Source of the DNA: a bacterium
Lineage (GTDB): Bacteria; Actinomycetota; Acidimicrobiia; Acidimicrobiales; CATQHL01
Reading direction: 5' to 3'
DNA: 64,000 bases
Assembly (NCBI GenBank): GCA_028824415.1
Contig: JAPPDX010000023.1
Span: 1 to 64,000 of the forward strand
Positions 45,607 through 63,979 of this stretch are shown here, piece by piece. The notes below the pieces were generated by a model that saw only the letters and a program-made list of their open reading frames with translations, did not search any database and was not told the origin of the DNA. A program made the position numbers and the translations under genes. Position 1 is the stretch's first letter. Each line of letters opens with the position of its first letter.

Positions 45607-46773
45607 GTGGACGCCAGCCGATACGAGACCACGCAATTCGGGCGGGCCAAGCGAACGCTCGGCCCGCACTCCTATGTGGCGTACTTCCCTGAACCACTGC
45701 CTCGTTCGCTTGCGCTGTCTCAAGAAAGCATCATGCGTACAGCCGACGCTGAGGCGGCGCTGGGCCGGCTGGCGGGAGCCGGAAGGCTGCTGGGAAACCC
45801 CCAGCTGCTCATCTATCCGTATCTGCGACGCGAGGCCGTGTCGTCAACCCGGATCGAAGGAACGCAGGCCTCGTTGAGCGACATCTTCGACGCTGAAGCA
45901 GACGGACGGCCTGCCAGCGGCGAGATCGAAGAGGTCGTGAACTACATCCAGGCAATGGAACTGGGCATAGGCCGCCTGCCGGAACTACCCCTGAGTCTGC
46001 GCCTCATGTGCGAGATGCACTCGGTGATCCTCACCGGAGTGCGCGGTGCGGAGCGCCTGCCAGGAGAGGTTCGGCGGACGCAGAACTGGGTCGGCAATCC
46101 GGATGCCACCGTCGCGACGGCTCTCTTCGTCCCTCCCCCGCCTGAGAAAGTCGGTGCCCTGCTCTCAGACCTCGAACGATTCATCCACGACACGCCCCAG
46201 CTCCCACCGCTCGTTCAAACCGCCCTGGTGCACTACCAGTTCGAGACGATCCATCCATTCCTCGACGGCAACGGTCGCCTGGGGCGCCTGCTGATCGTGT
46301 TCTTCCTCATCCAGCGAGGCCGGCTACAGACACCTCTCCTGTACCTATCGTCCTACTTCGAGGCCCACCGCGACACGTACTACGAGACACTCCAAGGAGT
46401 ACGAGAACGGGGCGACTTCGAGTCGTGGTTGCAGTTCTTTCTCCGGGGAGTGGAAGTCCAGGCCGGCGACGCAATCACGCGATCGGAGCGCCTGATGGAC
46501 CTGCGCGAGCAATACCGGCAAGTCGTACTGGCAGAGAGCCGCGGAGCCCCCAACGCACTCGTTGATCTGGCCTTCCAGCGACCATTCCTCAACGGCCGCA
46601 TGGTGGAGACCGGTCTCGGTATCAGCCGGCCCAGTGCTCTACGGGCTCTTGAGCGTCTCGAGAATCTGGGTCTCCTCCACGCAGCGCCAGAGGGACCCCG
46701 CAGACAACGCCGCTGGGTGGCTGTCGAGGTGATGGATATCCTGACTGGCGAAATCGTTCCGGAGAACTCGTAG
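45607..46773 (+). CDS. Fic-family AMP-transferase-like protein with winged-helix tail
   Basis: This 388-aa protein has an intact Fic motif HPFLDGNGRLGR at about residues 216-227 and an inhibitory helix motif SSTRIEG at about 79-85, placing it in the class with the N-terminal self-inhibitory glutamate. Fic proteins usually transfer AMP to target proteins. The C-terminal 70 residues (GLGISRPSALRALERLENLG, then LLHAAPEGPRRQRRWVAVE) form a winged helix that could bind the repeated operators just upstream, suggesting self-control. The start is the GTG at 45607. The target protein is unknown. Confidence 0.92.
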   Translation: MDASRYETTQFGRAKRTLGPHSYVAYFPEPLPRSLALSQESIMRTADAEAALGRLAGAGRLLGNPQLLIYPYLRREAVSSTRIEGTQASLSDIFDAEADGRPASGEIEEVVNYIQAMELGIGRLPELPLSLRLMCEMHSVILTGVRGAERLPGEVRRTQNWVGNPDATVATALFVPPPPEKVGALLSDLERFIHDTPQLPPLVQTALVHYQFETIHPFLDGNGRLGRLLIVFFLIQRGRLQTPLLYLSSYFEAHRDTYYETLQGVRERGDFESWLQFFLRGVEVQAGDAITRSERLMDLREQYRQVVLAESRGAPNALVDLAFQRPFLNGRMVETGLGISRPSALRALERLENLGLLHAAPEGPRRQRRWVAVEVMDILTGEIVPENS

Positions 46774-49210: not shown

Positions 49211-49597
49211 TCAGGGTCGGCGGACGTCGACGTCCTCGGCGTACTCGGCGAGGGCGCGCAGGTCCGCGATGTCGCCTGTCAGCACCGTGCCACCGGGTTC
49301 GGCGCGGGCGACGACGACCGCGTCCACGGCCGATCCTCGACCGGCCAGGGCGCGCAGCGTTCCGGCCCGTCTCGCAACCTGCTCCGGCAGGACCTCGATG
49401 ACCTCGCAGTGCTTCAGGAATCGGTTCACGGCGGCGTCGGTTCGTTGGCGACCCGACACGCACTCCGCCAGAACCACCGAGGGCACCACCGGCGGCCAGA
49501 TGCCGTCCTGGATGAACGTCTCGATCAGAGCCGCCGCGCTCCGTCGGCGCTGCGCCAGTGCGGTGAGGCCCCCGGAGTCCAGGACGAGCGGCGTCAC
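49211..49597 (-). CDS. vapC: VapC-like PIN-domain toxin
   Basis: This 128-aa PIN nuclease has the acidic active-site residues in LVLDSGGL (Asp), VVLAECVSG (Glu), SAVDAVVVARA (Asp) and VLTGDIADL (Asp). VapC toxins cut tRNA or rRNA when their antitoxin is lost. The ATG at 49597 overlaps the stop of the upstream antitoxin gene (ATGA). It marks the start of the accessory region in the right quarter of the window. Confidence 0.92.
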   Translation of the reverse strand: MTPLVLDSGGLTALAQRRRSAAALIETFIQDGIWPPVVPSVVLAECVSGRQRTDAAVNRFLKHCEVIEVLPEQVARRAGTLRALAGRGSAVDAVVVARAEPGGTVLTGDIADLRALAEYAEDVDVRRP

Positions 49598-49836
49598 CGG
49601 TCGGTGTCGCCCCGGCGGATTACGCGGGACAGGGCCTCGGCAGCGGCGAACTCCTCCGCCGAGGGCTCGCCGACCTCGTCGATCAGCTCCGCTAGGTAAC
49701 CCCGGGCTCCCTCGATCAACTCGCGGCGCCGCAGATCGGTCCGCACGGCGTCCTGCAGGAGCTTCGAAGCGGGCATGTTGTACTCCTTCACCGCTGCGTA
49801 GAGCTCTTCCGGCAGGTAGACCTGCATACGAGGCAT
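49594..49836 (-). CDS. vapB: VapB-like ribbon-helix-helix antitoxin
   Basis: This 80-aa protein begins MPRMQVYLPEELYAAVKEYN, a ribbon-helix-helix start, followed by an acidic helical tail that would wrap VapC. I use the ATG at 49836; an in-frame ATG at 49860 lies inside the likely promoter. The VapB dimer should repress this promoter; TGTGTACA, a partly symmetric site, lies just upstream (about 49846-49853). It is coupled to vapC by a four-base overlap. Confidence 0.85.
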   Translation of the reverse strand: MPRMQVYLPEELYAAVKEYNMPASKLLQDAVRTDLRRRELIEGARGYLAELIDEVGEPSAEEFAAAEALSRVIRRGDTDR

Positions 49837-49905
49837 ACGCCTACTGTACACATATCCCAATGATCGACGGTTCGCTCGAACAACCCGCCGGCGACCCCAG
49901 ACCTC

Positions 49906-50619
49906 TCAGCCGGTGGACCCGCCGGCGCCCGGTGCCGTGACGCGGTAGCCCAGCGTCTCGAGGGCTCCGACCGCCTCCTCGGGGAACTGCCGGGCTGTCC
50001 CTCGGGCCTGTTGCCGCTCCCAGGCCTCCAGCGAGTCGAGAAGCTTCGGCTTCCAGCCCGCCTTCCAGTTGTCGAAGAGGTTCTCCCTGTCCAGGAACAG
50101 CAGGAACTCCTCCAGGGTCGGCCGAAACCGACGACCGCCGACGGGGAAGTGCAGCGCGTGCAGATCGGGAGCGGGCCGACCGCTGGATCCGTACATCCAC
50201 GCCAACTCCGGCGAGTTGGCATGCAGATGCACGTGCGCCGCGGCTCGATCACGGCCCAGCCAACTCCGGTTGTACTCGACCCGCACGAGCGGGCGAGGCC
50301 GTTTCCGCCCCCCGGTCACATCGGCCCAGAGCCCGACCAGGGAGGTGGCGACTCGCAGGTGGCCACCGGTTGTACTCATCCCGACGGTGTAGTGCGCATT
50401 CAGGAACAGCGCAGGCGCGCTCGGTGCATCAGCGGCCCGGAGAAGGGCAAGACCCCCGGTCAGGTCACTGTAACGTTCAACGATCCGGACGAACGCCAGA
50501 TCGTCGTCGCGGTAACTCGTGGCCTCGAACCTGGCCGGCGTGTCGATCGCCCCGACGAGCACCGCGTTCAGCCTGCTCACGAACTCCTCAACGCATGGCT
50601 GAAGATTCCGTGCCGTCAC
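49906..50619 (-). CDS. module copy A: 237-aa protein of unknown family
   Basis: This is the large partner of the triplicated module. Residues 1-105 are moderately variable among copies. From VGLWADVTGGRKRPRPLVRV onward it is almost the same as copies B and C. The constant half holds a histidine pair in AAAHVHLHANSPELAWMYG, DLHALHFPVGGRRFRPTLEE and a basic helix near GWKPKLLDSLEAWERQQARG. The GTG at 50619 overlaps the stop of the 55-aa partner (GTGA), so the two are coupled. I do not recognise the family. A toxin-antitoxin-like or other two-component accessory function fits the layout but is unproven. Confidence 0.82.
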   Translation of the reverse strand: MTARNLQPCVEEFVSRLNAVLVGAIDTPARFEATSYRDDDLAFVRIVERYSDLTGGLALLRAADAPSAPALFLNAHYTVGMSTTGGHLRVATSLVGLWADVTGGRKRPRPLVRVEYNRSWLGRDRAAAHVHLHANSPELAWMYGSSGRPAPDLHALHFPVGGRRFRPTLEEFLLFLDRENLFDNWKAGWKPKLLDSLEAWERQQARGTARQFPEEAVGALETLGYRVTAPGAGGSTG

Positions 50620-51018
50620 CGCTGGAGCAACGCGTCCTTGTAGAGAAGCCACTCACCTCGACACTCGGCGTCGGTCAGAAGGTCCGCCTCGCCTTCGGCC
50701 ATGAACTCCTCGAACGTGAGACCCGCTCGCCGCGCGGTCTCCGTGACGATCTCGACGATTTCCTCTCTCGTAATGACTCTCATCGTCGTGGCGCCTCCTG
50801 CACGCTCAACCCGACTATTCCTGTCTCCGGGGCTCGCGGCAGACTTGCCGCTGGCACCCAACACGCGGCGCGATCACGCGCAAGACACCGTACAAGCCGA
50901 GCCGCTCGGTCGAATCGCCGCCCATGTCGACCTGCATGCCGACCGGCGCACATCACGGGGAACCCTCGACAGTGCCCCAAGTCCAGCGGTCAACCTAGCG
51001 GCGCTCGTGCCCACTCCA
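49927..51018. repeat. module repeat copy A (about 1.1 kb)
   Basis: This direct repeat covers the large and small genes of copy A plus about 235 bases upstream of the small gene. The other copies are at about 52046-53135 and 53200-54299. The upstream part (50880-51018) is among the best-conserved stretches. The 341-base gap 50784-51124 contains this leader and no other gene I can support. No transposase or flanking inverted repeats were seen. Confidence 0.85.
50616..50783 (-). CDS. module copy A: 55-aa partner protein
   Basis: This small protein starts MRVITREEIVEIVTETARRA, then GLTFEEFMAEGEADLLTDAE and CRGEWLLYKDALLQR. It is predicted helical and acidic in the second half. The ATG at 50783 is preceded by AGGAGG at 10 bases, conserved in all copies. 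The ATG choice is supported because homology with copies B and C starts at the same residue. Size, position before the large gene and coupling resemble an antitoxin or a small regulator; no known domain is recognised. Confidence 0.8.
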   Translation of the reverse strand: MRVITREEIVEIVTETARRAGLTFEEFMAEGEADLLTDAECRGEWLLYKDALLQR

Positions 51019-51124
51019 ACGGCCGCTCGACGCGGACGACATTTGGTTCGCGGCAGACTCCACGGCGCGGCCGTCATCGAGACCGCCGACTCCCACCGAG
51101 ACGCCCCAAGCGCCGGAGACCGCC

Positions 51125-51403
51125 ATGACGTCGACACATCCGTACAGCCCTGACCACGCCACCCCGCCCGGCTGGACGCTCGAGGAAACGCTGACGGAGC
51201 TGTCGATGAGCCAGGCCGAGTTGGCCCGTCGCACCGGACTCTCGACGGAGCACATCGACCGGATCATCCGGGGCAAGGCTCCCATCGCCGGCGACACAGC
51301 ACGGCGACTCGAGCGTGCCACAGGCCTGCCCGAACGGCTATGGAACAACCTCGAGAGCCATTACCAGGAGCACCAGGCCCGCCTCGCCGAGGCGCACCCG
51401 TAA
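51125..51403 (+). CDS. lone XRE/HigA-like helix-turn-helix protein
   Basis: This 92-aa protein reads PGWTLEETLTELSMSQAELA, then RRTGLSTEHIDRIIRGKAPI and RRLERATGLPERLWNNLESH, the helix-turn-helix of HigA-type antitoxins and of the N-terminus of XRE-ImmA/IrrE proteins. No HigB-like toxin or ImmA domain follows: the frame stops at 51403 after EHQARLAEAHP. It sits between module copies A and B on the opposite strand, sharing their intergenic leader. It may regulate the modules or be the stump of a longer gene. Confidence 0.8.
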   Translation: MTSTHPYSPDHATPPGWTLEETLTELSMSQAELARRTGLSTEHIDRIIRGKAPIAGDTARRLERATGLPERLWNNLESHYQEHQARLAEAHP

Positions 51404-51437
51404 CCCAGCCACGGTGCCGGCCGACCCTGAGACCGGG

Positions 51438-52016
51438 TCAGCGGTCGCCGCGGCGGCGCAGCCTCGGGAGCGGGTTGTGTAGTTCTGGATCGAGGCAGAT
51501 CTCCAGAACGAGGATCGTCACGGCGAATACAGCCATCAGCGCGATCACGGGCACCAGGACGGACGCCTGGGCGAGGTTGAACTCAGCCGAAGTCAGCATG
51601 ATCGCAACCAGCGCAGACGTGCCGGCCGCTTTCAGCACGTCGATGACGGCGGGGGATCGAAGCGACTCCAGGAGTTGCAGCCTGAACGACTGACGCTCCG
51701 ATCTGAGCTGGTGCTGCCGCATCCGCCGCCCCAGCGCGACGTAGAGAAGCCGTGCCAGCACAGCGCCGGCCGCGCACGCAGCCAAGAACACGCCGACCAT
51801 GGCGACTGCCCAGCCGGTCGGGGCTGTGCGTAGTGCCTCCTCGGTCAGAAGGCCGGCGGTTACGCCGAGAACCGTGCCGATGAGCCATCCGAAGTATCCC
51901 CGCGATACTCGGGCTATGAGTGATGGTGGATTCGATGCTGATGGAGTTGATGAAGTCACAGACCAGCGACGATACGGGAAGCCGTCCGTGACCGTCGGCT
52001 GCGCCGCTGTCGTCAA
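51438..52016 (-). CDS. membrane protein of unknown function (192 aa)
   Basis: Four hydrophobic segments are visible, in two pairs: about residues 42-60 (YFGWLIGTVLGVTAGLL), 68-92, 125-142 and 150-170 (VLVPVIALMAVFAVTILVLE). A charged cytoplasmic-looking stretch with RRMRQHQLRSERQSFRLQLL lies between the pairs. No family is recognised. It lies between module copies A and B on the same strand, 18 bases before the start of repeat B, so it may belong to the insertion that separates them. Confidence 0.6.
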   Translation of the reverse strand: MTTAAQPTVTDGFPYRRWSVTSSTPSASNPPSLIARVSRGYFGWLIGTVLGVTAGLLTEEALRTAPTGWAVAMVGVFLAACAAGAVLARLLYVALGRRMRQHQLRSERQSFRLQLLESLRSPAVIDVLKAAGTSALVAIMLTSAEFNLAQASVLVPVIALMAVFAVTILVLEICLDPELHNPLPRLRRRGDR

Positions 52017-52034
52017 CTGCGGCCGGCGCGTCGC

Positions 52035-52733
52035 CTACGCGCCCGGGGCCGCGACGCGGTAGCCCAGCGTCTCGAGCGCGCCGATCGCCTCGGCGGGGAA
52101 CTGCCGGGTGGTCGCCCGGGCCTGCCGCCGTTCCCACGCCTCGAGCGACCGGATCAGCCTCGGCTTCCAACCCTCCTTCCAGTCGTTGAAGAGGTTTTCC
52201 CTGTCCAAGAAGAGCAGGAACTCCTCCAGGGTCGGACGGAACCGGCGACCGCCGACAGGGAAGTGCAGCGCGTGCAGATCCGGAGCGGGCCGACCGGCCG
52301 AGCCGTACATCCACGCCAACTCCGGCGAGTTCGCATGCAGATGAACGTGCGCCGCGGCCCGACCATGGCCCAGTTGACCCCGGTCGTACTCGACCCGCAC
52401 CAGCGGGCGCGGCCGTTTCCGCCCGCCGGTCACATCGGCCCAGAGCCCGACCGTCGAGCCGGCGACTCGCAGGTGACTACCCGTCGGGCTCATCTCGACG
52501 GTGTAGTGCGCGTTAAGGAACAGCGCAGGCACGCGCGGCGCATCCGCGGCACGGAGAAGGGCGAGACCCCCGGCCTGGTTGCATCGACGGTCAACGGCCT
52601 GGACGAACACTTGGTCGTTGTCACGGGAACTTGTGGCCACGAACCGGCCCGGCGTGTCGATGGCAGCGACGAGCACCTCGTTCAGCGTGCCCACGAACTG
52701 CTCAACGCATGTCCGAAGGATCTGTGCCGTCAT
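52035..52733 (-). CDS. module copy B: 232-aa protein of unknown family
   Basis: This is the second copy of the large module protein. Compared with copy A the N-terminal 105 residues differ at many positions but keep AIDTPxRF, GGLALLRAADAP and ALFLNAHYTV. The rest, from TVGLWADVTGGRKRPRP to the end, is nearly the same. The ATG at 52733 overlaps the partner stop (ATGA). Reading frame and coupling are intact, so the copy should be functional. Confidence 0.82.
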   Translation of the reverse strand: MTAQILRTCVEQFVGTLNEVLVAAIDTPGRFVATSSRDNDQVFVQAVDRRCNQAGGLALLRAADAPRVPALFLNAHYTVEMSPTGSHLRVAGSTVGLWADVTGGRKRPRPLVRVEYDRGQLGHGRAAAHVHLHANSPELAWMYGSAGRPAPDLHALHFPVGGRRFRPTLEEFLLFLDRENLFNDWKEGWKPRLIRSLEAWERRQARATTRQFPAEAIGALETLGYRVAAPGA

Positions 52734-53135
52734 CGCTTGAGCAGCACGTCCCTGTAGATGAGCCAGTCATCTCGACACGCGGCGTCGGTCAGCAGGTCCG
52801 CCTCGCCTTCGGCCATGAACTCCTCGAAGGTCAGGCCCGCCCGCCGAGCCGTCTCCGTGCAGATCTCGACGATTTCATCTCTGGAAATCACTCTCATCGT
52901 CGTGTCGCCTCCTCCAGGCTCGATCGACTACTCCTGTCCCGGGGCTCGCCGGTGGACGTGCCGCCGGCACCCAACACGCGACGCGGTCACTCGCTCGAGA
53001 CCGTACAAGCCGAGCCGCTCGACCGAATCGCCGCCCAAGTCGACCTGCATGCCGACCGGCGCACATCACGGGGAACCCTCGACAGCACCCCAAGCCCGGC
53101 GGTCAACCTAGCGGCGCCCGTGCCCACCGCCACCC
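52046..53135. repeat. module repeat copy B (about 1.1 kb)
   Basis: This direct repeat is collinear with copy A, and includes the 235-base leader upstream of the small gene. It ends about 65 bases before copy C begins, so B and C are in tight tandem. The gap 52898-53193 is filled by this leader and a short unique spacer. Confidence 0.85.
52730..52897 (-). CDS. module copy B: 55-aa partner protein
   Basis: This is read directly from the minus strand: MRVISRDEIVEICTETARRA, then GLTFEEFMAEGEADLLTDAA and CRDDWLIYRDVLLKR. It has the same 55-residue length as copies A and C, with a conserved ATG at 52897 and CCTCCT (AGGAGG on the coding strand) upstream. The changes from copy A are mostly conservative, pointing to selection on the protein. 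Confidence 0.8.
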   Translation of the reverse strand: MRVISRDEIVEICTETARRAGLTFEEFMAEGEADLLTDAACRDDWLIYRDVLLKR

Positions 53136-53193
53136 GTTCTGCGCCCGCCCGCTCGCTGCGTTCGGGGACGCCGGAATCCCGACCGCGCCTCGC

Positions 53194-53892
53194 CTACACG
53201 CGAGGGGCCGTGACGCTGTAGCCCAGCGTCTCGAGCGCGCCGACTGCCTCCTCAGGGAACTGCCGGGCCGTCGCTCGGGCCTGCCGCCGTTCCCACGCCT
53301 CGAGCGACTGGGTCAGCCTCGGCTTCCAGCCCTCCTTCCAGTCGTTGAAGAGGCTCTCCCGATCCAGGAACAGCAGGAACTCCTCCAGCGTCGGCCGGAA
53401 CCGGCGCCCGCCGACGGGGAAGTGCAGCGCGTGCAGATCGGGAGCGGGCCGACCGGCCGAGCCGTACATCCACGCCAACTCCGGCGAGTTCGCATGGAGA
53501 TGCACGTGCGCCGCAGCCCGACCTCTCGCCGATTGACGCCGGTCGTATTCGACCCGCACCAGCGGGCGGGGGCGTTTCCGCCCGCCGGTCACATCGGCCC
53601 AGAGCCCGACCGTCGACGACGACACCCGCAAGTCATCGCGTCTGGCGTCGACCTCGACGATGTACCGGGCCCTGAGAAAGAGCGCAGGACCATCGGGGTC
53701 GTCGTGCGAACGAACCAGAGCGACGCCCGCCGACCGAGCATCGGGGCCGTCCCGCACTTGGACGACCGCCTCGGCGCCGTCACTCGAGAGCCTTGCGTCG
53801 AACCTTGCCGTTGTCGAGACGCTGCTCTCGAGCAGATGGTTCAGCGTGCCAACGAACCTCTCGACCGATGCCGGGAACTCCTGGCCACTCAC
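53194..53892 (-). CDS. module copy C: 232-aa protein of unknown family
   Basis: This is the third copy. Its N-terminal 105 residues are the most divergent (SVSTTARFDARLSSDGAEAV, VALVRSHDDPDGPALFLRAR), sharing only scattered positions with A and B. From STVGLWADVTGGRKRPRPLV on it is again almost the same as the others. The GTG at 53892 overlaps the partner stop (GTGA). I prefer it to the longer frame from 53937 because it aligns with the other copies. Confidence 0.82.
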   Translation of the reverse strand: MSGQEFPASVERFVGTLNHLLESSVSTTARFDARLSSDGAEAVVQVRDGPDARSAGVALVRSHDDPDGPALFLRARYIVEVDARRDDLRVSSSTVGLWADVTGGRKRPRPLVRVEYDRRQSARGRAAAHVHLHANSPELAWMYGSAGRPAPDLHALHFPVGGRRFRPTLEEFLLFLDRESLFNDWKEGWKPRLTQSLEAWERRQARATARQFPEEAVGALETLGYSVTAPRV

Positions 53893-54299
53893 TGCTTGCG
53901 CAGGAAGTTCCGGTAGGCAAGCCAATCCTCCCGACACTCGGCGTCGGTCAGGAGGCCCGCCTCGCCTTCCGCCATGAACTCCTCGAAGGTGAGACCGGCA
54001 CGTCGCGCCGTCTCCGTGACGATCTCGACGACCTCTTCTCGCGTGATGATCCTCATCGTGGTGGTGCCTCCTGCAGGCTCGATCCGACTACTGCTGTCCC
54101 CGGGGCCGGCCAGCAGACTTTGCCGCCGGTACCCAACACACGGCGCGGTCACACGCTCGACACCGTACAAGCCCAAGCCGCTCCGCCGAATCGCCGCCCA
54201 CGTCAACCTGCGTGCCGACCGGCGCACATCACGGGGAACCCTCAACAGCGCCCCAAGCCCGGCGGTCAACCTAGCGGCGCCCGTGCCCACCGCCACCCC
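53200..54299. repeat. module repeat copy C (about 1.1 kb)
   Basis: This is the third direct repeat. Its leader (54161-54299) matches those of A and B closely and ends abruptly at the same base, after which the three flanks are unrelated. The shared end marks the duplication boundary. Confidence 0.85.
53889..54056 (-). CDS. module copy C: 55-aa partner protein
   Basis: The protein reads MRIITREEVVEIVTETARRA, then GLTFEEFMAEGEAGLLTDAE and CREDWLAYRNFLRKQ, 55 residues like its paralogues. The ATG at 54056 is preceded by the conserved CCTCCT (AGGAGG in coding sense). An open frame extending to 54374 is just leader sequence. The small proteins differ among copies mainly in the last 15 residues, which may match the differing N-terminal halves of the large partners. 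Confidence 0.8.
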   Translation of the reverse strand: MRIITREEVVEIVTETARRAGLTFEEFMAEGEAGLLTDAECREDWLAYRNFLRKQ

Positions 54300-54642: not shown

Positions 54643-55131
54643 CTAGCCAGCGACCGGCCTACTCGCAGCGGGTGAGAGCGACTTGACCAGGCTGCGTGTG
54701 AGATTCTGCAGGGCCGGGAGATGGCCCGCTTCCATCATGTCTTTGACCAGAGGGATCCCGCCCGCGGCGTAGCCCTCGGCGATGTCCAAGACTTGCCGCG
54801 GATTCCGCACCACGAACGGGTCTCCGCTGTGGGCTATCGCTAGCAAGAAAAGGAACTCAATTGCAGCTAGGTCGCGTTGGAGGACGACGCCGGTGATGAA
54901 CTCGTGGCGCTCAGCAGAGTCCACGGTCATGAAATGATCTTGTGACGCACCTATGGCTGCAGCAAGCAGCCAGAAGTCGACGTAGCGCTTGAACGGCGCC
55001 TCTTCGATGTCCTTGGCTCCTCCATCTGCCGAGCCAAAGGTGGTGCTGTAGAGCCTCAGGTTCTCGTGGTAGGCCGTGGGAACGTGGATGGCTTGGTTCG
55101 CGAACGGATTGAAGTCTCGGGAGATCGCCAC
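54643..55131 (-). CDS. 162-aa protein of unknown function, last gene of the defence-like operon
   Basis: This mostly helical protein contains NPFANQAIHVPTAYHENLRL, FKRYVDFWLLAAAIGASQDH and VVLQRDLAAIEFLFLLAIAH. I do not recognise the family. The GTG at 55131 follows the stop of the DndD-like gene after two bases, so it belongs to the same transcription unit. Its size and the FWLLAAAIG-like helix loosely recall small DNA-modification partners such as DndE, but no diagnostic motif supports that. Confidence 0.8.
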   Translation of the reverse strand: MAISRDFNPFANQAIHVPTAYHENLRLYSTTFGSADGGAKDIEEAPFKRYVDFWLLAAAIGASQDHFMTVDSAERHEFITGVVLQRDLAAIEFLFLLAIAHSGDPFVVRNPRQVLDIAEGYAAGGIPLVKDMMEAGHLPALQNLTRSLVKSLSPAASRPVAG

Positions 55132-55133
55132 GC

Positions 55134-57245
55134 TCAGACCGTCGCCTTTCGCTCACAGACCCGGCAGGACGAGTAGTAGTCGCAGTCACAGAGCAACGTC
55201 TCGAGTCGCCCGGTCGCCGGATCGTTCACCAACTGCTTCGGGAAATGGTCGGTGAAGGTCATCGTGTAGGTGCGTCCGGCGTACCGATCGAGAATGTCCT
55301 CCACGCCTTGAATCTCGCTTCCGGTGAGGAACATGACAAGTTGCGTTGAATTCTCCGCTGCGTATTCGAGCAGCGATCTTCGGACGAGGGCGCTGGTCAT
55401 TCCAAGTGGCGTGTCTACGACATTCGGAGCGCTCACGCCGCTCACGCGGACGAGCCCAAGGATGAACGCCAGCGTCAGTGCTCTGCGTTGCGCCCCGCTG
55501 AGGTCCTTGTCAGGGTCTAGCCGCTGGTCGTCGGAGCCGAACACGACGATGTCATGCTGGCGCGTTAGCTCCGCTCGCTTGATGAGACCGCCGGTCTCGG
55601 GATCGGTCACGATCATTTTGAGGAAGATCTCGCTCATCGCGGAACTCACCTCATCGACAGTCTCACTCTCCAAGGTCTCGACGGTGCCCCGAAGCACGGT
55701 CAGTAGGTCGTTGGCGGCAATCTCTTCGGCAAGCCGTCGCCGATACTTCTCCTCCTTCTTCAGGGCCGCTTGTCGTTCTTTGACTACTTCCGCTTGATCG
55801 CGCCTTGTCGTTCGGATCTGCTCGGACACGTGCGCCGCTTCGCTTGTGAGGCGCTTCGCCTCGGCTTCCTCCTCGGTCAACATCCGTTCCAGTTCGCTGA
55901 TGTCCTGTTCGGGGATGTCGCGGATCCTGGTTCGCAGCTCGGTGATCTCCTTCTCAAGCCGCTGTTGGGCCTGGCTGCACCGCACGATGTCGGTGAGCGA
56001 GTCACCAGCCTGCGCAACCCACGAGTCAGATTCCTCATCGCCGCCATTGGTGTCGCGTAGCCTCGCAGCGGTACTGAGGTGTAGCAGGATCTCATGGCTT
56101 TCCTCAAGCTGGTCGATCTCGGCGAGGAGGTCGCAGAGTGCGGCGTGTCCGTCCGTTCCTTCCGACACGTCTCGCCCGCAAATGCACGTCGTGCGACGGA
56201 GTCGATCTCGTACGACCTCGGGCAAAGTGTCCGGGATGACCCCGTCAGTCTCGAGCTGAGCGAGAAGATCTGCGGCTTGGCGGATCTGACTTGCCGCGAC
56301 TCGTGCGAGTACGTCGGAGCTGTTGATGAGTCCTCGCTGTCGTTGCACTAGGTCAGCGTGGTATTTCCGCTCGTCGTCCAGCTCCCTCCTGCGATCCGAG
56401 AGGTTGGACTCAAGCTGTCGACGATCCGCGCTACCAGCGGCCAGCGCAGCACGGAGTGCCTCGTCCGCCTTGCGCTTACGCGTGTCGGTAGCCCGGCGGT
56501 CGTCGTCGATCTGCTTCTTGTCTTCTTCCAGTTTCTGCAGGCAGTCGGTCAGATCGGCCTCTCGTGTTGCGAGATGTTCCACATTGGTACCGGCCGCTTC
56601 TTTCCGGACGGCAGAGACTGCCCTTCTCCTCGCGACATCCACGTGGCGCTCAGCCTCTTCGAGGACGTCGAGCCCAAGCAGCTGACGCACTGCCCGTTCC
56701 ACTCGGTCGCGCTTTGCTGAGCGTTCGTCAGTCGCCTCGATGAAGGCGAGCGCACGGTCCCCGTCAATGAAGAACACGTCCTTGAGGCTCTTGGGCAAGA
56801 CCCGGTTGGCTATGAACGCGTTCGGGTTGAGCACAGGTTCATCGCCTGTTGGCTTCTGCTCGAAGAGCATCAGATCTGACCCGTCTACATCGAAGGCACC
56901 AGCGTTCGTCGGCCGCTCCTTCGTGGTGCGGACCAGGTCATACGTCCTTTCCATGCCGGTCTCGTCATCGATGGTTGCGAACCTGATCTCCACCTCGATG
57001 GCGCAGACCCTACCGTCACCCTCGACGTCCCAGTCGAGGGGATGAAGCCGGTACGCGGATCTTCTGCCAGGTAGGGCCTCGTCACCAAAGAGACCCCAGG
57101 TGAGAGCCGTAAGGAGGGTCGTCTTCCCGGTGCCATTCTCGGCGCGTATCACGGTCAGAGGGCTCTCGGTCTCGCGAGCAAACGAGATCTCGACGTCTCG
57201 GAGCTGCCGAAAATTACGCACTTTGGCCTGGTTGAGCTTGATCAT
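55134..57245 (-). CDS. DndD/Rad50-like SMC-type ATPase
   Basis: This 703-aa protein starts IKLNQAKVRNFRQLRDVEIS with Walker A ENGTGKTT at residues 36-43. Long coiled coils (about 200-330 and 420-510) flank a central CICG motif near residue 355 that recalls a Rad50 zinc hook. The C-terminal lobe has the ABC signature DLSGAQRRALTLAFILGL and Walker B NVVDTPLGMTS. This is the plan of DndD, the ATPase of DNA phosphorothioation systems. The last 20 residues hold a cysteine group C-x-C-x5-C-x2-C (CDCDYYSSCRVC), perhaps metal-binding. The ATG at 57245 overlaps the previous stop (TAATG). Confidence 0.88.
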   Translation of the reverse strand: MIKLNQAKVRNFRQLRDVEISFARETESPLTVIRAENGTGKTTLLTALTWGLFGDEALPGRRSAYRLHPLDWDVEGDGRVCAIEVEIRFATIDDETGMERTYDLVRTTKERPTNAGAFDVDGSDLMLFEQKPTGDEPVLNPNAFIANRVLPKSLKDVFFIDGDRALAFIEATDERSAKRDRVERAVRQLLGLDVLEEAERHVDVARRRAVSAVRKEAAGTNVEHLATREADLTDCLQKLEEDKKQIDDDRRATDTRKRKADEALRAALAAGSADRRQLESNLSDRRRELDDERKYHADLVQRQRGLINSSDVLARVAASQIRQAADLLAQLETDGVIPDTLPEVVRDRLRRTTCICGRDVSEGTDGHAALCDLLAEIDQLEESHEILLHLSTAARLRDTNGGDEESDSWVAQAGDSLTDIVRCSQAQQRLEKEITELRTRIRDIPEQDISELERMLTEEEAEAKRLTSEAAHVSEQIRTTRRDQAEVVKERQAALKKEEKYRRRLAEEIAANDLLTVLRGTVETLESETVDEVSSAMSEIFLKMIVTDPETGGLIKRAELTRQHDIVVFGSDDQRLDPDKDLSGAQRRALTLAFILGLVRVSGVSAPNVVDTPLGMTSALVRRSLLEYAAENSTQLVMFLTGSEIQGVEDILDRYAGRTYTMTFTDHFPKQLVNDPATGRLETLLCDCDYYSSCRVCERKATV

Positions 57246-57475
57246 TAGGACGGCTCCCAGCCAGCCCTGAGAAGGACCGTCGCTAGCGCCTGTGCCTTGT
57301 CGTTGATCTTCTTCTGGATCTGGGTCCTCGCTTCGAGGTGCTCCTTCTCGAGGATAACGATCTGGGCCAACGTCTCGAGGACGTCCCCCCGGTAACCACG
57401 CACGCGGGCCGTTTCGTCGATCCGGTCGACCTGTTCGCGCAGGACCGCGAGGAGTTTCTGCTGGCTCACCGTCAT
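57245..57475 (-). CDS. 76-aa coiled-coil small protein
   Basis: This 76-residue protein is predicted as two long helices: QKLLAVLREQVDRIDETARV and LAQIVILEKEHLEARTQIQK. The ATG at 57475 lies 28 bases after the helicase stop, with AGGAGG-like sequence upstream, and its stop overlaps the DndD-like start. No family is recognised. Size and place suggest a structural partner of the SMC-like ATPase. Confidence 0.78.
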   Translation of the reverse strand: MTVSQQKLLAVLREQVDRIDETARVRGYRGDVLETLAQIVILEKEHLEARTQIQKKINDKAQALATVLLRAGWEPS

Positions 57476-57503
57476 TCCGCGTACCTCCTCCTAGCCTCGG
57501 CGA

Positions 57504-59663
57504 TCATACGATGTACTCCAGTCGGACATCCTGGAGTATGTCTCGAGGCCCTCCTGGGGCGGCGCGGTTCTGCGCGAGGTTCGTGAATTCGTCGCATCTA
57601 GCGAGTTCACCTCGGATCAGTCGCTTGACGTCGTCGTCTCTGGGTTCGCCTGGCGGCGGGAGGACCAGGAAGTCATGAATCTTGGCGAACTGCTTCCCGA
57701 TGGTTGAGCACGTGCGCAGCACCCGTCCCCGTCGTTGAACCCATTGGCGTTCAACGGTCGTACTAGCCAGGATGATCGCCGTCGAGATCTCAGGGACGTC
57801 GAGACCTTCGTCAAGAACGCGCTTTGCCGTGAGCACTTTGAGGGATCCCCCTCGAAACGCTTCGAGCACCGAGTCAACCAGTCTTGCGTTGCCCGTCTCG
57901 TGGGCGGTGATCTGGTGGAATCTGAGGCCTAGTGATCGAACGATCTCGTTCACTGATTCGAGTTGGCCGGGGTCTTTGTCGGTGGCGTACACGAGCGTGT
58001 GTCGCACCTCGTCCGGCGAACTCGGCGCGAGCAGCGCCTTGAGCAATTCGAGCTTTCCCTCCGCTGCCTCAAGGACGAGGCGGCGCCTGTTGCGGAGTAG
58101 TTGCAGTCGCTCCTCTTCCTCCGCGCTGGGGTCTCGACCGGCGGCGAGCGAGAGCCTGCGGATCTTGTCGCTCAGCCTCCGGTACCCCTCGAGCTCGTGG
58201 GGGCTGAGACCGACCGAGTGGAGGTGGTAGTCGTACGGCACGAGGCAGACGCCGATGGCGTCGGCGAGACTGAACTCGAACACAACGTCGCCAAAGTATT
58301 CTGCCAGGCGAGCTGTGCCATCTGGGTCATATTGACGTTCCGGAGTTGCCGAAAGTCCGAGTCGATAGTCGATATCGCGAGGCGGTGAGGCCAGGAACGA
58401 CCCGCCGCCGAGGTTGTGGACCTCATCGGCGATCAGCATCAATGGCCCCTGGTAGCTGTCGAGTAGTTCGCGGAACGCGGTGTCGTGGAGGAAGTCATTC
58501 GTGACGATGAGCGCCTCCACGCCTCCGGTGTCGAACTCGATGCGTTGGAGCCGTTCGTCGATCTCACGGAGTCGGCGCTGGCGTCCATGAGTTCCTGTGA
58601 TGTACGGAGCGATACCAAAGTCACGCCACTCCTCTGCCCACTGTGCGATGAGCGGGCGTGTTGGAGCCGCGACAACAACGACGAGGCGCCTGAGCTCACG
58701 CCAGAGGCGCCAGGCGCAGAGCAGGGCTGTGATCGTCTTCCCCGAGCCGGTGGCCATCGCGAGGATTCCGTGTCGACCAGCTCCTTCCCATCTGAGCACC
58801 GCGTTTCCTTGGTGCGAGTAACGGCCAGCCTCCCAGACAAGATCGCGTGGTGGCGCGAAACGGTCCCGGTGTGTGCTGGCTTCGACGGCAGAGCCAAGCT
58901 CACTCCGATGAAGCTTGCCCTCAAGCTCGAGCGCCTTGCGGTAGTCCGCTTCGGTCGGTGGCTGACTTGTGTCGTAGGACTCGATTAGACCTTCTCGCAG
59001 CGCCACCGGGAGATCCACTGCGATCGCATGAGGCTTGGAGTTCGACCAGTACGCCTCGAACTCGTCGACCGCTTCTCGGCTCGCCGTCTCGCTGTCCCCA
59101 CCACGCCAACTGCGGTGCAGGTTGAGTCGCTCCACGTTGCCGAGGAGGGCTTGGCCGGTGAAGTTCGCAGACCCGGACAAGACGGCGAGGTCTTGGCCGG
59201 CTCGGAAAATCCACTCCTTTAGGTGGAACTTCGCATCTTCCACCAAGACGACCTTCATGAGTAGGCGCCGCGTGGCGAGCAGGTAGGCGAAGCACTGCTT
59301 GGTGTGCTGAGCCAGGGCGCTCGCCAGGGCCGTTTCGTCCGTGAAGGCCGACGCGATCGCACCGGTGAGGAGTTCCGTTGGGCTCCTAGTGCCGAGCCGA
59401 ATCCCTTCCTGATCTGAGTCCGACAGCACCGGACTAACGAGTAGACGGAGCGATCGATTAGAGCGCAAGATGTAGGCCGCCAGACCGTGAGATAGCTCGC
59501 GGAGGGCCGCACCGCCGAAGTAGCCGACCATGCAGTCGAACCTGTCTGCGACCTGTAGCGCGGGAATGATGACGTCCTCGACGACCTCGTCATCTGGACG
59601 TCGCCAGGTCGGTTTTCGGTCGTCGAGCAGCCTGAGTCGCGATGCCGCAGCCCACGCCGTCAT
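57504..59663 (-). CDS. PLD-DEVH superfamily 2 helicase (phosphorothioation-restriction type)
   Basis: The N-terminal region of this 719-aa protein (about residues 25-230) looks like a phospholipase-D-type nuclease domain: DCMVGYFGGAALREL, then KFHLKEWIF with H-x-K, and LSGSANFTGQALLGN. The helicase follows: motif I AMATGSGKTITALL, motif II LIADEVHNLGG (DEVH), motif III GLSATPERQYD and motif VI QWVQRRGRVLRT. A PLD nuclease with a helicase is the layout of restriction enzymes tied to DNA sulfur modification. The ATG at 59663 follows the PP-loop gene stop by one base; the longer frame to 60083 is antisense-like overlap. Confidence 0.88.
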   Translation of the reverse strand: MTAWAAASRLRLLDDRKPTWRRPDDEVVEDVIIPALQVADRFDCMVGYFGGAALRELSHGLAAYILRSNRSLRLLVSPVLSDSDQEGIRLGTRSPTELLTGAIASAFTDETALASALAQHTKQCFAYLLATRRLLMKVVLVEDAKFHLKEWIFRAGQDLAVLSGSANFTGQALLGNVERLNLHRSWRGGDSETASREAVDEFEAYWSNSKPHAIAVDLPVALREGLIESYDTSQPPTEADYRKALELEGKLHRSELGSAVEASTHRDRFAPPRDLVWEAGRYSHQGNAVLRWEGAGRHGILAMATGSGKTITALLCAWRLWRELRRLVVVVAAPTRPLIAQWAEEWRDFGIAPYITGTHGRQRRLREIDERLQRIEFDTGGVEALIVTNDFLHDTAFRELLDSYQGPLMLIADEVHNLGGGSFLASPPRDIDYRLGLSATPERQYDPDGTARLAEYFGDVVFEFSLADAIGVCLVPYDYHLHSVGLSPHELEGYRRLSDKIRRLSLAAGRDPSAEEEERLQLLRNRRRLVLEAAEGKLELLKALLAPSSPDEVRHTLVYATDKDPGQLESVNEIVRSLGLRFHQITAHETGNARLVDSVLEAFRGGSLKVLTAKRVLDEGLDVPEISTAIILASTTVERQWVQRRGRVLRTCSTIGKQFAKIHDFLVLPPPGEPRDDDVKRLIRGELARCDEFTNLAQNRAAPGGPRDILQDVRLEYIV

Positions 59664-59664
59664 G

Positions 59665-60513
59665 TCAGAGGGCACACACCGTGCACGGCAGGGTGTCGTC
59701 GTCCTCCTCAAGAGCCTCGCTGAGGGCTTCGAGGAGGGGGACGTTGGCTCTGGTCTTGTTGGCCCGGGCCGTGGCTGCTTCGTGCCGCTGGAGGATTTCG
59801 TCGCGGCGGGATCGGAGCTGGGGGAGTGTTTCACCACCTGACCAGGTGTATTGACGGCCGCGCATGGCGCGATCGCCGAAGTCGGCGTCGCCGTCGACGC
59901 CAGCATCTTTGAGGACCTTCTGCTCGATGGCGACAGCGCGCTCAAATAGGTCGGGATGACGGTCAGAGAGGCCGATCCATTCCGCTTTGCGTTGGTAGAA
60001 GCAGAAGTAACAGCCGGACCGCGTGCGCCACTCGTAGTAGTCGGGCAGACCGATTCCAGCGTCGCCGAGGATCCCAAGCACATCGTCGTGGTTGATGCCG
60101 TCCTCGACGAACGGGAATCGCGTCTCGATATTGGGCTTCGTGGAGATGTAGCCCTTGCGGTTCGCCTCGTCGGCTCGGATTGCGACGTAGGAGATCGCCG
60201 GCGCGTCGCCGATCCACTCCTCGATCGGCTTGATCTTCATATTCTTGGTACACCACCGCATCTGGGGTGATGGCAGTGCTCCGCGGAAGACCTCGAACCA
60301 ATGGTCGAACCCACGGCGCGCGTTCAGTCGCACGATGGGCTTTCCGAGAATCACTTCTAGGCGGGTCAAATACTCGTACGTCTCAGGAAGCTCCGCGCCC
60401 GTGTCGCAGAAGAAGTACTCCATGTCTGGAACCTTGCCGCGCAGATAGACGGCCAAGGCGCTGGAGTCTTTGCCGCCGGAGATGCCACAGATGTGACGAA
60501 CTCCCTCAACCAT
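59665..60513 (-). CDS. PP-loop (PAPS reductase/DndC-like) sulfur-transfer protein
   Basis: This 282-aa member of the adenine-nucleotide alpha-hydrolase family has the pyrophosphate loop ICGISGGKDSSALAV (SGGKDS at residues 12-17), FCDTGAELPET, a cysteine in QMRWCTKNMK and RTRSGCYFCFYQRKAEW with CxxC, then a C-terminal CTVC. The cysteines could hold an Fe-S cluster, as in DndC, which activates sulfur transfer to DNA. BrxP of type 4 BREX is a related option. The ATG at 60513 overlaps the ATPase stop by 8 bases. Enzymatic role is inferred from family only. Confidence 0.87.
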   Translation of the reverse strand: MVEGVRHICGISGGKDSSALAVYLRGKVPDMEYFFCDTGAELPETYEYLTRLEVILGKPIVRLNARRGFDHWFEVFRGALPSPQMRWCTKNMKIKPIEEWIGDAPAISYVAIRADEANRKGYISTKPNIETRFPFVEDGINHDDVLGILGDAGIGLPDYYEWRTRSGCYFCFYQRKAEWIGLSDRHPDLFERAVAIEQKVLKDAGVDGDADFGDRAMRGRQYTWSGGETLPQLRSRRDEILQRHEAATARANKTRANVPLLEALSEALEEDDDTLPCTVCAL

Positions 60514-63500
60514 GGGACGCTCCACGCACGCTCGCGTCGGTGACCCACTCCTCGGGGACCATGTCGCGGGCTGGCCGCACACGGTCTCCGAGGATCGCGA
60601 GAAGAGCGTTCTGAGCTCGCCGAAGCGAGAACGCGTGTTGGCCGAGATTCTCTAGAAGCTCGGCCAACGCGTTCTCCACTAGTCGCCGCTCGTCATCGTC
60701 GACTGCTACGAGAAGGGCGTATTCGTCTCCATCCGGCCAGGTGAACGCGACACGGCTTGAGGCGAAACCCCGGCGGCGAAGAGATCGCTGTTCCGTATGG
60801 AGAGCCACGAGACGTTGGAACGCTGCGATGTCCTGGACGAGTTCAGCCTTGCTCCGCTGGAGATCCTGATCGGTCCACTCGGTGGGCGCCTTCTTCGCGA
60901 CGACCGTGGCGATGGTCTCGACCCATTCGGTGTCGCTACTCCCATTGTCCGCGAGTGCGAGGACGAACGCTCGCACCCCGGGATCCAGGACTTCGCCATC
61001 CAGGCCAGCCGCGTGGCCCATGACGGCTAGGCGGCTCCGCTCGGCGCTGGTCTCGAGCAGCAGCGTCAGGAGATTCTCAAGAAGTCGCGGGTAGCAGGCG
61101 TCTAGGTCGTCCAGAACGCTGCTCAGGCTGTCGGCGTACGCCACCGCTAGGGGATAGCTCGTCGCCTCCGCGGACACAGCCGAGAACCCGAGAGCCTTAG
61201 GAAGGCTCGCAAACAGCAGCGCGTCTGGCTCGACAGCTGTCGTCAACGCCTCTCTCGCTCTTAGAACTCGCGGAGGGAGGTTGCTCGTACAGAGCGTGTA
61301 GTTGTCCAAGCGCGTCAGTCGAGAGACGAGCTGACCGACGACAGCCAGCACGTTGGCGACGCGGTGCTTGCGGAATCGTGGCCGGATCTCAAGCCGCTCT
61401 GCCAGCGCCGCAACCACCTCCCGCCGGGCACCGGTCGTGTTGGCAAAGTGCTTGATCTGGAAGTGGGAAGGATTGCGCACCATCCGCTCGGAGGCATCAG
61501 CGGTGAGCACGGGCATGAAGGTGCCGTGCTCGTAGATCGCAACCTCATCGGCGAAGGCGAGCAGTCCTGCGGTGACGAAGACGGGGATGACGCCGGCCTT
61601 CATGCCGATCGGCGGCGACAGCAAGGCCGCGTAGATGTCGCTGAGGTCGATGCGTCGGGACTTGGCTCGCTGGAACTCATCCGTGAGGACTTGCCAAGCC
61701 GGCTTCAGCGACTCGTCCGTAGGCGACCGGAAAGTCATCACTTCATTTCGCGAATCGCGACCGTGCAGGCCGGTGTGCTTAAGGACCGCTTGGTACATGG
61801 CCATCTGCGGCCCGTAGCCCTCCAAGCCGAGATCGCTCTCCGTGCCCTGCTCAATCATGGCCTCGAGGAGTATCCGACGGGCTTTGGCACCTTGCGAGGT
61901 GAGTTCGGAGCGGTTGATCATCTCGTTCCGCACCATCGGCGTCAAGGGATAGGCACGCTCCGCAGCAGCTGACAGCGCGCTGCTCCCACGACCGGCTTGG
62001 AGGGTTCGGAGCCGACCAGCATCGAACATGAGCCAGCGGCACCCGTCCGAGTTGAAGGTCGTCGCACGGGCATCTTCGAACGCCACCCTGGACTGAGCCA
62101 GCCGCTCGCCCAACTCTCGGCGCGCGACCCAGTCAGGAATCACTGACGCATCCTCGAGCGCAGCCGTCACGGCGGCAACTTCACGAGCGGCAGCATCCAG
62201 AACGCTGACGTCCTCGGGGACCGCCACCACGATGGGCTTCGATGCAAGTGCCGAGCCAACCACATCAGGGACCGCCTGGTCCTTGCCGACGCAGAGCAGG
62301 ACAAGACCATCATGCGGGGAGAAGGCCTCCACGGGCTCAATGCGGTCGCCGCCGTCGGAATAGCGCCTCTGGAATATCCGGAGGACGTTGTGCTTCGCGC
62401 TATGCCGGGCAGCGATCACCGGGCCTGGCGCATCGATCGCTCTGAGAATCTCGACGAGCGACTGCCGCTGGATCCGCTGCCGAGTCGATTCGAGCAGCAG
62501 ACGGATGTCGACGTCGGTCCCCTGCCAAATCCGATACTCGTCGGCGAAGTCCCGGTAGGTGACGATGCCTGCGCTCTCCAGATCGGTGAGAGGCTCGTCG
62601 AGTTGATCGTGGGTCAGGGCCAGCACCTGGCGCGACGCTCTGACGGCGCCCGTCGTCGACACGAGGTTGAGCAGCGCGATGGACTTGGCAAGGCGCTGTT
62701 GTGCATCCGTCAGACCATGGGAATCGCGCAATCGGGTTGCGATCTCAGTCCATCGACTCGACTGATGAGCAGACGCCACGCTGAACGCACCAGCAGCAAC
62801 GAAGTAGTCGTAGACCGCGTCGAGGCCCATTGACGGCAATGGTTCGCAGGTAGGCAACAGCGTCGTGTCAAGAAAGGACGAGACGCTCGCTGGGTTTGGG
62901 TCAGTCAGAAACGAGAAGAGCGTGCGCTCGTGCTGACCGTACCGGCTGCACAACTCGGGAAGCACAAGGGCGACCAAGGGGTGGAGCGGATAGCAGGAGG
63001 CCACAACGCGCTGGTCGGCGATGTCGTGAATCCCGAGTAGTCGCATCTTTGTGGCGATCAACCCGGCCCAGTGGTCGATGCGAGCCCGGAGATCATCGTC
63101 AGCCACGCTGAACGCCGTGCCGATGAGGGCACGGGTTTGACTTGCCGACTCGACGAACGCAATGTCCTCGAAGCGGCCCTGCACCTTGGCCCACTCTCGG
63201 CGCTGAGGAGCGTCAACACCCTCGAAGTAGTCCTCGAACGACAGGTGCTGGAGCGTAAGCACGAAGATCGGCAGACCGGAGCCCTGTCCCGCCTCCGCAA
63301 GTCGCTGCAGCAGATAAGGGTCGGAGTCGTCGTTGTCCCGGATGGCCTCGAGGTTCTTGCCGAACTCATCGACGATTAGAAGGAGCGGCGCATCCTGCGC
63401 CAAGCAACAGGCGATCTCCACAAGGGATGACGGCGATGGCCCGGTGCGGCGCGGGTCGTCCGTCTGTGCGTCCTCGAGCGCGCCTCGCAGCAAGCGAGCT

Positions 63501-63979
63501 GCTGCGAACCGTCCCGGGCTTGGGATGCGACCGTAGCTGCGCAGCACAGCTCCATGAAGCGCCCGCAGCATGGTGCGGCTAACCGTCTCGCGCTCAGCGG
63601 TAACGAGCGCGCGGTGGAATCCGCGCTCCTGTGTTCCGTGACGGCTGTGCGCGTCCCGCAACAGATCGGCGGTATCCGGCGAGGCGTCAGCGATGAGCTG
63701 TAGGGCGACCTGGTGGGTCTGTGAGGCACCGCTGAGCGCGGCATCAAGCAAGAGAGCCAGCGACGACTTGCCCGATCCGTACGGACCGGTCAGCGACCAG
63801 GCACCGCCGGCGCGTCCTCCGGCTGCAGCCGTGACAATGCGCTCGACCACGTCGAGAACCCGCGCCGTGACGATGTAGCCATCCAAGGGCTCGATACGAG
63901 CGAGGTCGCGTTCAAGATTCGCCGACCGGGCAAACCGGGCTCCTACAGCTATGGCGTCTGCGAGGGTTCTCATCAGCAT
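60506..63979 (-). CDS. large P-loop ATPase (1157 aa), first gene of the defence-like operon
   Basis: Walker A is SLTGPYGSGKSSLALLL at residues 62-78 and Walker B is PLLLIVDEFGKNLEAI near residue 205, with SASQTRALIGTAF soon after. The rest is long, helical and unassigned. Such large ATPases with YGSGKS and VDEFGKN occur in defence systems, for example BrxC-like or Dpt-type proteins, but I cannot name the group. Residues before the first methionine stay open to the window edge, seven codons upstream, so the start (ATG 63979 or 63973, or one outside) is not certain. The stop overlaps the PP-loop gene. Confidence 0.85.
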   Translation of the reverse strand: MLMRTLADAIAVGARFARSANLERDLARIEPLDGYIVTARVLDVVERIVTAAAGGRAGGAWSLTGPYGSGKSSLALLLDAALSGASQTHQVALQLIADASPDTADLLRDAHSRHGTQERGFHRALVTAERETVSRTMLRALHGAVLRSYGRIPSPGRFAAARLLRGALEDAQTDDPRRTGPSPSSLVEIACCLAQDAPLLLIVDEFGKNLEAIRDNDDSDPYLLQRLAEAGQGSGLPIFVLTLQHLSFEDYFEGVDAPQRREWAKVQGRFEDIAFVESASQTRALIGTAFSVADDDLRARIDHWAGLIATKMRLLGIHDIADQRVVASCYPLHPLVALVLPELCSRYGQHERTLFSFLTDPNPASVSSFLDTTLLPTCEPLPSMGLDAVYDYFVAAGAFSVASAHQSSRWTEIATRLRDSHGLTDAQQRLAKSIALLNLVSTTGAVRASRQVLALTHDQLDEPLTDLESAGIVTYRDFADEYRIWQGTDVDIRLLLESTRQRIQRQSLVEILRAIDAPGPVIAARHSAKHNVLRIFQRRYSDGGDRIEPVEAFSPHDGLVLLCVGKDQAVPDVVGSALASKPIVVAVPEDVSVLDAAAREVAAVTAALEDASVIPDWVARRELGERLAQSRVAFEDARATTFNSDGCRWLMFDAGRLRTLQAGRGSSALSAAAERAYPLTPMVRNEMINRSELTSQGAKARRILLEAMIEQGTESDLGLEGYGPQMAMYQAVLKHTGLHGRDSRNEVMTFRSPTDESLKPAWQVLTDEFQRAKSRRIDLSDIYAALLSPPIGMKAGVIPVFVTAGLLAFADEVAIYEHGTFMPVLTADASERMVRNPSHFQIKHFANTTGARREVVAALAERLEIRPRFRKHRVANVLAVVGQLVSRLTRLDNYTLCTSNLPPRVLRAREALTTAVEPDALLFASLPKALGFSAVSAEATSYPLAVAYADSLSSVLDDLDACYPRLLENLLTLLLETSAERSRLAVMGHAAGLDGEVLDPGVRAFVLALADNGSSDTEWVETIATVVAKKAPTEWTDQDLQRSKAELVQDIAAFQRLVALHTEQRSLRRRGFASSRVAFTWPDGDEYALLVAVDDDERRLVENALAELLENLGQHAFSLRRAQNALLAILGDRVRPARDMVPEEWVTDASVRGASHG

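Follow-up and report, generated by a model that had tools for sequence, protein, structure and literature searches.

What is the function of a two-gene module that a genome carries in three copies at a single locus? The question is raised by contig JAPPDX010000023.1 of assembly GCA_028824415.1, from a bacterium of the order Acidimicrobiales, of which we analyzed positions 1 to 64,000 of the forward strand (the window, 64,000 nucleotides in all). In each copy, a gene for a 55-residue protein overlaps a downstream gene for a protein of 232-237 residues. Our analysis suggests that this unit is probably a toxin-antitoxin operon with the large protein as the toxin, and at the level of sequence profiles it looks like a new branch of the TumE-TumA superfamily rather than an unrelated system.

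The three direct-repeat units, about 1.1 kb each (copies A, B, and C), lie on the minus strand and share one layout: a leader of roughly 230 base pairs (bp), then the small gene, then the large gene.

49906-50619, minus strand: copy A large gene, 237 residues, GTG start, intact open reading frame, putative toxin
50616-50783, minus strand: copy A small gene, 55 residues, GTGA overlap with the large gene, putative antitoxin
50784-51014, minus strand: copy A leader, conserved noncoding DNA, 88% identical to the copy B leader
52035-52733, minus strand: copy B large gene, 232 residues, ATG start, putative toxin
52730-52897, minus strand: copy B small gene, 55 residues, ATGA overlap, three-helix model, putative antitoxin
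52898-53130, minus strand: copy B leader, noncoding
53194-53895, minus strand: copy C large gene, 233 residues, GTG start, first ~93 codons divergent and the rest like A and B, putative toxin
53892-54056, minus strand: copy C small gene, 55 residues, GTGA overlap, putative antitoxin
54057-54293, minus strand: copy C leader, 88% identical to the copy B leader

The spacing of the units is uneven: B and C are adjacent, and A is separated from B by a helix-turn-helix (HTH) gene and an open reading frame of 192 codons. In every copy, the stop codon of the small gene and the start codon of the large gene share four bases (GTGA in A and C, ATGA in B), and all six frames are open in full. Relative to copy B, the small proteins are 76-82% identical and the large proteins 70-79%. 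Pairwise ratios of nonsynonymous to synonymous substitution rates (dN/dS) among the copies are 0.20-0.25 for the small gene (0.25 for copy A); in the large gene they are 0.22-0.23 in the C-terminal part (about 0.23 for copy A) and 0.39-0.59 in the N-terminal part; given these low ratios, we conclude that all three copies are kept as coding genes under purifying selection and are not open by chance. Searches of the window's assembly return five small-gene and five large-gene matches: the three window pairs plus two others, more distant, on different contigs. An initial sequence-only reading of this region had reported a triplicated module, a 55-residue protein translationally coupled to one of 232-237 residues, and six intact frames; each of these points is borne out, and to them we add the leader, a mosaic structure in copy C, and a genomic island, which that reading did not mention.

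If the two proteins work together, the small gene should be conserved next to the large one, and a survey of this kind had been proposed along with the initial reading. A small-protein profile built from 18 pairs found the small gene beside homologues fetched later. In the final tally, every full-length homologue of the large gene that we examined (49 of 49, not all of them independent), whether from an actinobacterial chromosome, a plasmid, a Mycobacterium abscessus prophage, or a viral contig, has the small gene directly upstream, in most cases with an overlap; nine other large-protein matches are truncated genes, contig ends, or members of an intermediate family described below. Among the relatives surveyed, we saw no intact large gene that lacked its small partner. 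The two proteins also diverge together: across 45 pairs, the distances between small proteins co-vary with those between large proteins (Mantel r 0.87), and none of 5000 permutations scored as high. Five loci retain an intact small gene next to a large gene that is truncated, internally deleted, or missing (L021, L112, L114, L117, and L122); a harmful large protein would be expected to lead to decay in this direction, of the large gene only.

The distribution of the pair is patchy. Large-protein homologues occur in 9 of 60 related genomes (narrow profile) and, with a broad profile applied across the phylum, in 17 of 396 genomes, some of these matches being intermediate-family members. We also found them on plasmids of Rhodococcus, Streptomyces, and Curtobacterium, in two Mycobacterium abscessus prophage records, and, through a degenerate DNA pattern, at 19 loci on viral contigs; a crude regular expression for an integrase motif near these viral-contig pairs gave nothing useful. 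Such accessory, multicopy occurrence on mobile elements and in islands is typical of type II toxin-antitoxin systems. Like the classical VapBC, RelBE, and HigBA pairs, the unit has a small gene overlapping a larger one; it differs from them in belonging to other protein families and in a small protein that lacks a recognizable DNA-binding domain. At one locus elsewhere (L029, G313 contig C65), two pairs of different subfamilies stand in tandem; the window is thus not the only place with an array.

Does either protein belong to a described family? Scans of the window proteins and diverse homologues against Pfam, NCBIfam, PHROGs, and PADLOC gave no credible match to a named family, the PADLOC result covering window copy B and three diverse homologues; the initial reading, which recognized neither family, was right on this point. 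We attribute weak sub-threshold matches, to a catechol dioxygenase N-terminus and to DUF5548, to chance. Where plasmid and phage records are annotated, they label the homologues hypothetical proteins. A strictly paired set of genes thus recurs across Actinobacteria, including M. abscessus prophages, and is missed by the libraries searched.

The structural checks that had been suggested, AlphaFold2 and Foldseek for both proteins, likewise returned no confident match in the PDB. The AlphaFold2 model of the copy B large protein, built from 22 aligned sequences, has a mean predicted local distance difference test score (pLDDT) of 86.1 and a predicted template modelling score (pTM) of 0.84; it has seven strands and flanking helices, with an N-terminal helix and a helical C-terminal part. 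The copy B small protein is predicted to adopt a three-helix fold (pLDDT 89.6). With Foldseek, the large protein has no match at E 0.001 or better in PDB or BFVD and the small protein none that is confident in PDB; sequence searches of PDB with profiles of the window family and of TumE found nothing credible. VIA-align matches to Mediator Med17 and the actin capping protein CapZ (Z up to 7.9) reflect a common arrangement only, at the tool's stated background level. Twelve positions are invariant in the folding set: Phe13, His129, His157, Pro159, Val160, Gly161, Gly162, Arg166, Pro167, Glu170, Glu179, and Arg210.

The closest described relatives are reached through an intermediate family. TumE-TumA (toxin PF20126, formerly DUF6516) is an experimentally validated toxin-antitoxin superfamily, in which six pairs were tested and toxicity was neutralized by the partner (2023, PMC10584680); in the literature on TumE/DUF6516 beyond that paper, we found only one passing mention. 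The intermediate pair is actinobacterial and unnamed, with no Pfam name either (L039-L042, L081, L086-L090, and L097), and its large protein carries the motif PHLH...HxPTGR. The window large-protein family aligns with this intermediate family over its full length (hhalign probability 98.5%, E 2e-15), and the intermediate large protein aligns with TumE over the strand-plus-HxH region (88.6%, E 3e-6). The small proteins follow the same path, with partners for the comparison chosen by position only: the window small protein matches the intermediate partners (95.4%, E 2e-8), and these match TumA (52%, E 1.5e-4). In all four comparisons, none of 60 column shuffles scored as high. One intermediate protein, L039, also comes close to the Pfam TumE model itself, scoring 22.8 bits at E 9e-5 where the cut-off is 23.4.

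Several features are shared across this chain. As in TumE-TumA, the window unit is a two-gene operon with a partner that usually lies upstream, is found on plasmids and chromosomes, and combines an alpha+beta toxin candidate with a small helical partner; an H-x-H segment follows an aromatic/acidic strand, and the predicted seven strands agree in number with the published description of TumE, which has seven antiparallel strands and two helices and no confident PDB match of its own (PMC10584680). In contrast, the window large protein has about 235 residues where TumE has about 125; it also differs in additional sequence at the N-terminus, a helical tail at the C-terminus, and a PVGGxRFRPxLED segment. 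The intermediate pair has the same gene order as the window unit, with a large protein of ~170-190 residues and PTGR in place of PVGGxRFRP; its small partner reads SGEEFxxRWDxG... and often has a distinct AMLLPF end. No TumE was found in 59 genomes of the window's taxonomic order.

These profile alignments make it likely that the window family and TumE-TumA share a common ancestor, and because only the intermediate family links them, we place the unit among the distant relatives of TumE-TumA and not within PF20126. The initial suggestion of an undescribed system therefore holds in that there is no named family, and fails in that both genes connect to a described superfamily. Its other suggestion, a layout resembling toxin-antitoxin systems, gains from the strict pairing, the co-divergence, the loss of large genes beside intact small ones, and the accessory setting in a defence island, plasmids, and prophages. 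If the unit is truly of the TumE type, the superfamily extends to longer toxins, with the intermediate family joining the branches.

How would such an operon work? The upstream 55-residue, three-helix protein would be the antitoxin and the downstream alpha+beta protein of ~235 residues the toxin, with the invariant His129, His157, Pro159, Gly161, Gly162, Arg166, Pro167, and Glu170 as candidate catalytic residues. The four-base overlap would couple translation of the two genes so that the antitoxin, which would neutralize the toxin, is made first. TumE inhibits translation, and a ribonuclease activity has been proposed for it and is unproven (PMC10584680). Given the remote kinship to TumE, the toxin would most likely act by halting protein synthesis, probably by cutting RNA; by this analogy, we give translation as the target roughly even chances, and the large protein is possibly a ribonuclease.

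Copy C offers a view of how the large protein may be organized. Compared with copy B in 40-bp steps, its leader and small gene are 72-100% identical; identity then drops to 50-67% over roughly the first 93 codons of the large gene and returns to 75-97% afterwards. The synonymous distance between the two copies is 1.3 in the N-terminal part versus 0.26. The divergent stretch, 53610-53895, is unlike both A and B, and its breakpoint is sharp; recombination that swapped only the N-terminal part of the large gene would explain this mosaic. With so little change in the small protein, trigger or target specificity, and not antitoxin binding, may be what the N-terminal part determines. A bolder model, which we think rather unlikely, is that the large protein is modular: its first ~93 residues would be an exchangeable trigger- or target-specificity domain recombined between paralogues, its C-terminal catalytic part would be constant, as would the antitoxin, and the array would comprise phage-responsive toxins with different triggers and one antitoxin type. 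If the unit is a toxin-antitoxin system of the TumE type, its three paralogues, of which copy C has a swapped N-terminal half, would form a natural set for probing toxin specificity.

The units lie in a variable island. Comparison with congeners places one edge at the conserved amine oxidase gene that ends at 49090: in genome G003, the amine oxidase is followed by ~1.8 kb with scattered short matches and then by sequence matching the window's contig at 74.0-77.7 kb, which gives the island a length of about 25 kb in the window's genome (49091 to ~74 kb of the contig). Genome G007 carries just one unit, and its outer edges correspond to the left edge of copy A on one side and the right flank of copy C on the other; a degraded unit stands next to the amine oxidase in G004; and in G006, Ssp-like sequence is present and the unit is absent in the stretch compared. 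Within the island of the window are these further genes.

49211-49860, minus strand: overlapping pair of ribbon-helix-helix (RHH) type, an RHH-like small protein (sub-threshold) and a 128-residue protein
54643-63979, minus strand: Ssp/Pbe phosphorothioate-type defence locus, made up of the following
60506-63979, minus strand: SspC-like
59665-60582, minus strand: SspD-like
57504-60083, minus strand: PbeA-like, true start likely downstream
55134-57245, minus strand: PbeC/DndD-like
57245-57475 and 54643-55131, minus strand: two further open reading frames of the Ssp/Pbe run, no Pfam or PADLOC match

Tandem copies in a variable defence island would probably serve phage defence, island maintenance, or both; for phage defence by itself, we regard the case as tentative. 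A related possibility, somewhat doubtful in our view, is that the pair is dedicated to anti-phage defence by abortive infection: the large protein would be active only on sensing a phage component, and the small protein would be a regulatory subunit and not a classical antitoxin. The island that the units share with the Ssp/Pbe genes and the RHH-type pair would fit such a system, as would the exchange of the large-gene N-terminal half between copies, which a sensing region might undergo. So would the M. abscessus MabE1 prophages (cluster assignment from PMC8092301), where the pair, with the lysis genes on one side and the integrase on the other, fills a slot that holds unrelated cargo in a sister prophage. 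Plain toxin-antitoxin pairs, however, are also usual in defence islands, and no PADLOC model matches. The copy on a Streptomyces albus plasmid adjoins cas3.

Other observations weigh against a toxin-antitoxin operon of the TumE type. None of the three window proteins matches PF20126, even with E allowed up to 1, and aligning the profiles of TumE and the window large protein directly with hhalign gives no significant score (E 0.31, with 12 of 60 shuffles as good). The column shuffles leave shared helical composition uncontrolled. The small protein has no recognizable DNA-binding domain. Finally, five broken large genes versus no broken small genes is statistically weak, given that the large gene has about four times the length of the small one.

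The non-significant direct comparison with TumE is what would be expected if the profile link reflected convergence of short His-rich and helical motifs, making this a toxin-antitoxin system of separate origin. We consider this improbable: each of the two genes is linked to TumE-TumA independently, in both cases by way of one intermediate pair with the same gene order, and the number of strands in the model equals that of TumE. When the small protein is compared with TumA directly, the score lies above all 60 shuffles, at a probability of only 5.5%. Least probable is a two-subunit enzyme or regulator unrelated to toxicity, with the small protein as a chaperone or structural subunit, since the strict pairing and co-divergence that would also fit such an obligate complex come with a patchy distribution (17/396 phylum genomes), multiple copies, a mobile setting, large genes that decay while small genes survive, and the link to TumE-TumA.

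What, then, is the leader? It is part of the repeat, and across eight congeneric genomes its full-length form occurs nowhere but beside this unit, the exception being a 32-base match in G003. We rejected a structured RNA: the copy B leader has a fold z-score of -0.24 relative to shuffles and no Rfam match above the gathering score. An inverted repeat between leader and toxin gene was taken as chance because other pairs in the region are equally strong. The simplest reading is a predicted promoter-operator, and the conserved leader could be the operator of the toxin-antitoxin unit.

Two neighbors outside the units separate copies A and B.

51125-51403, plus strand: HTH_3 (Cro/C1-type) gene, PF01381 E 9e-10
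51438-52016, minus strand: open reading frame of 192 residues, hydrophobic by eye, no Pfam match

Some further observations concern the surroundings and the relatives. The mixture of Ssp and Pbe components in one locus may deserve attention. The 128-residue protein of the RHH-type pair resembles a PIN toxin by reading and has no Pfam match. In L112 (G002 contig C153), the truncated large gene reads in frame into a Phd/YefM antitoxin domain. Just outside the island, at 45607-46773 on the plus strand, lies a gene for a Fic-domain protein (PF02661, PADLOC SoFic).

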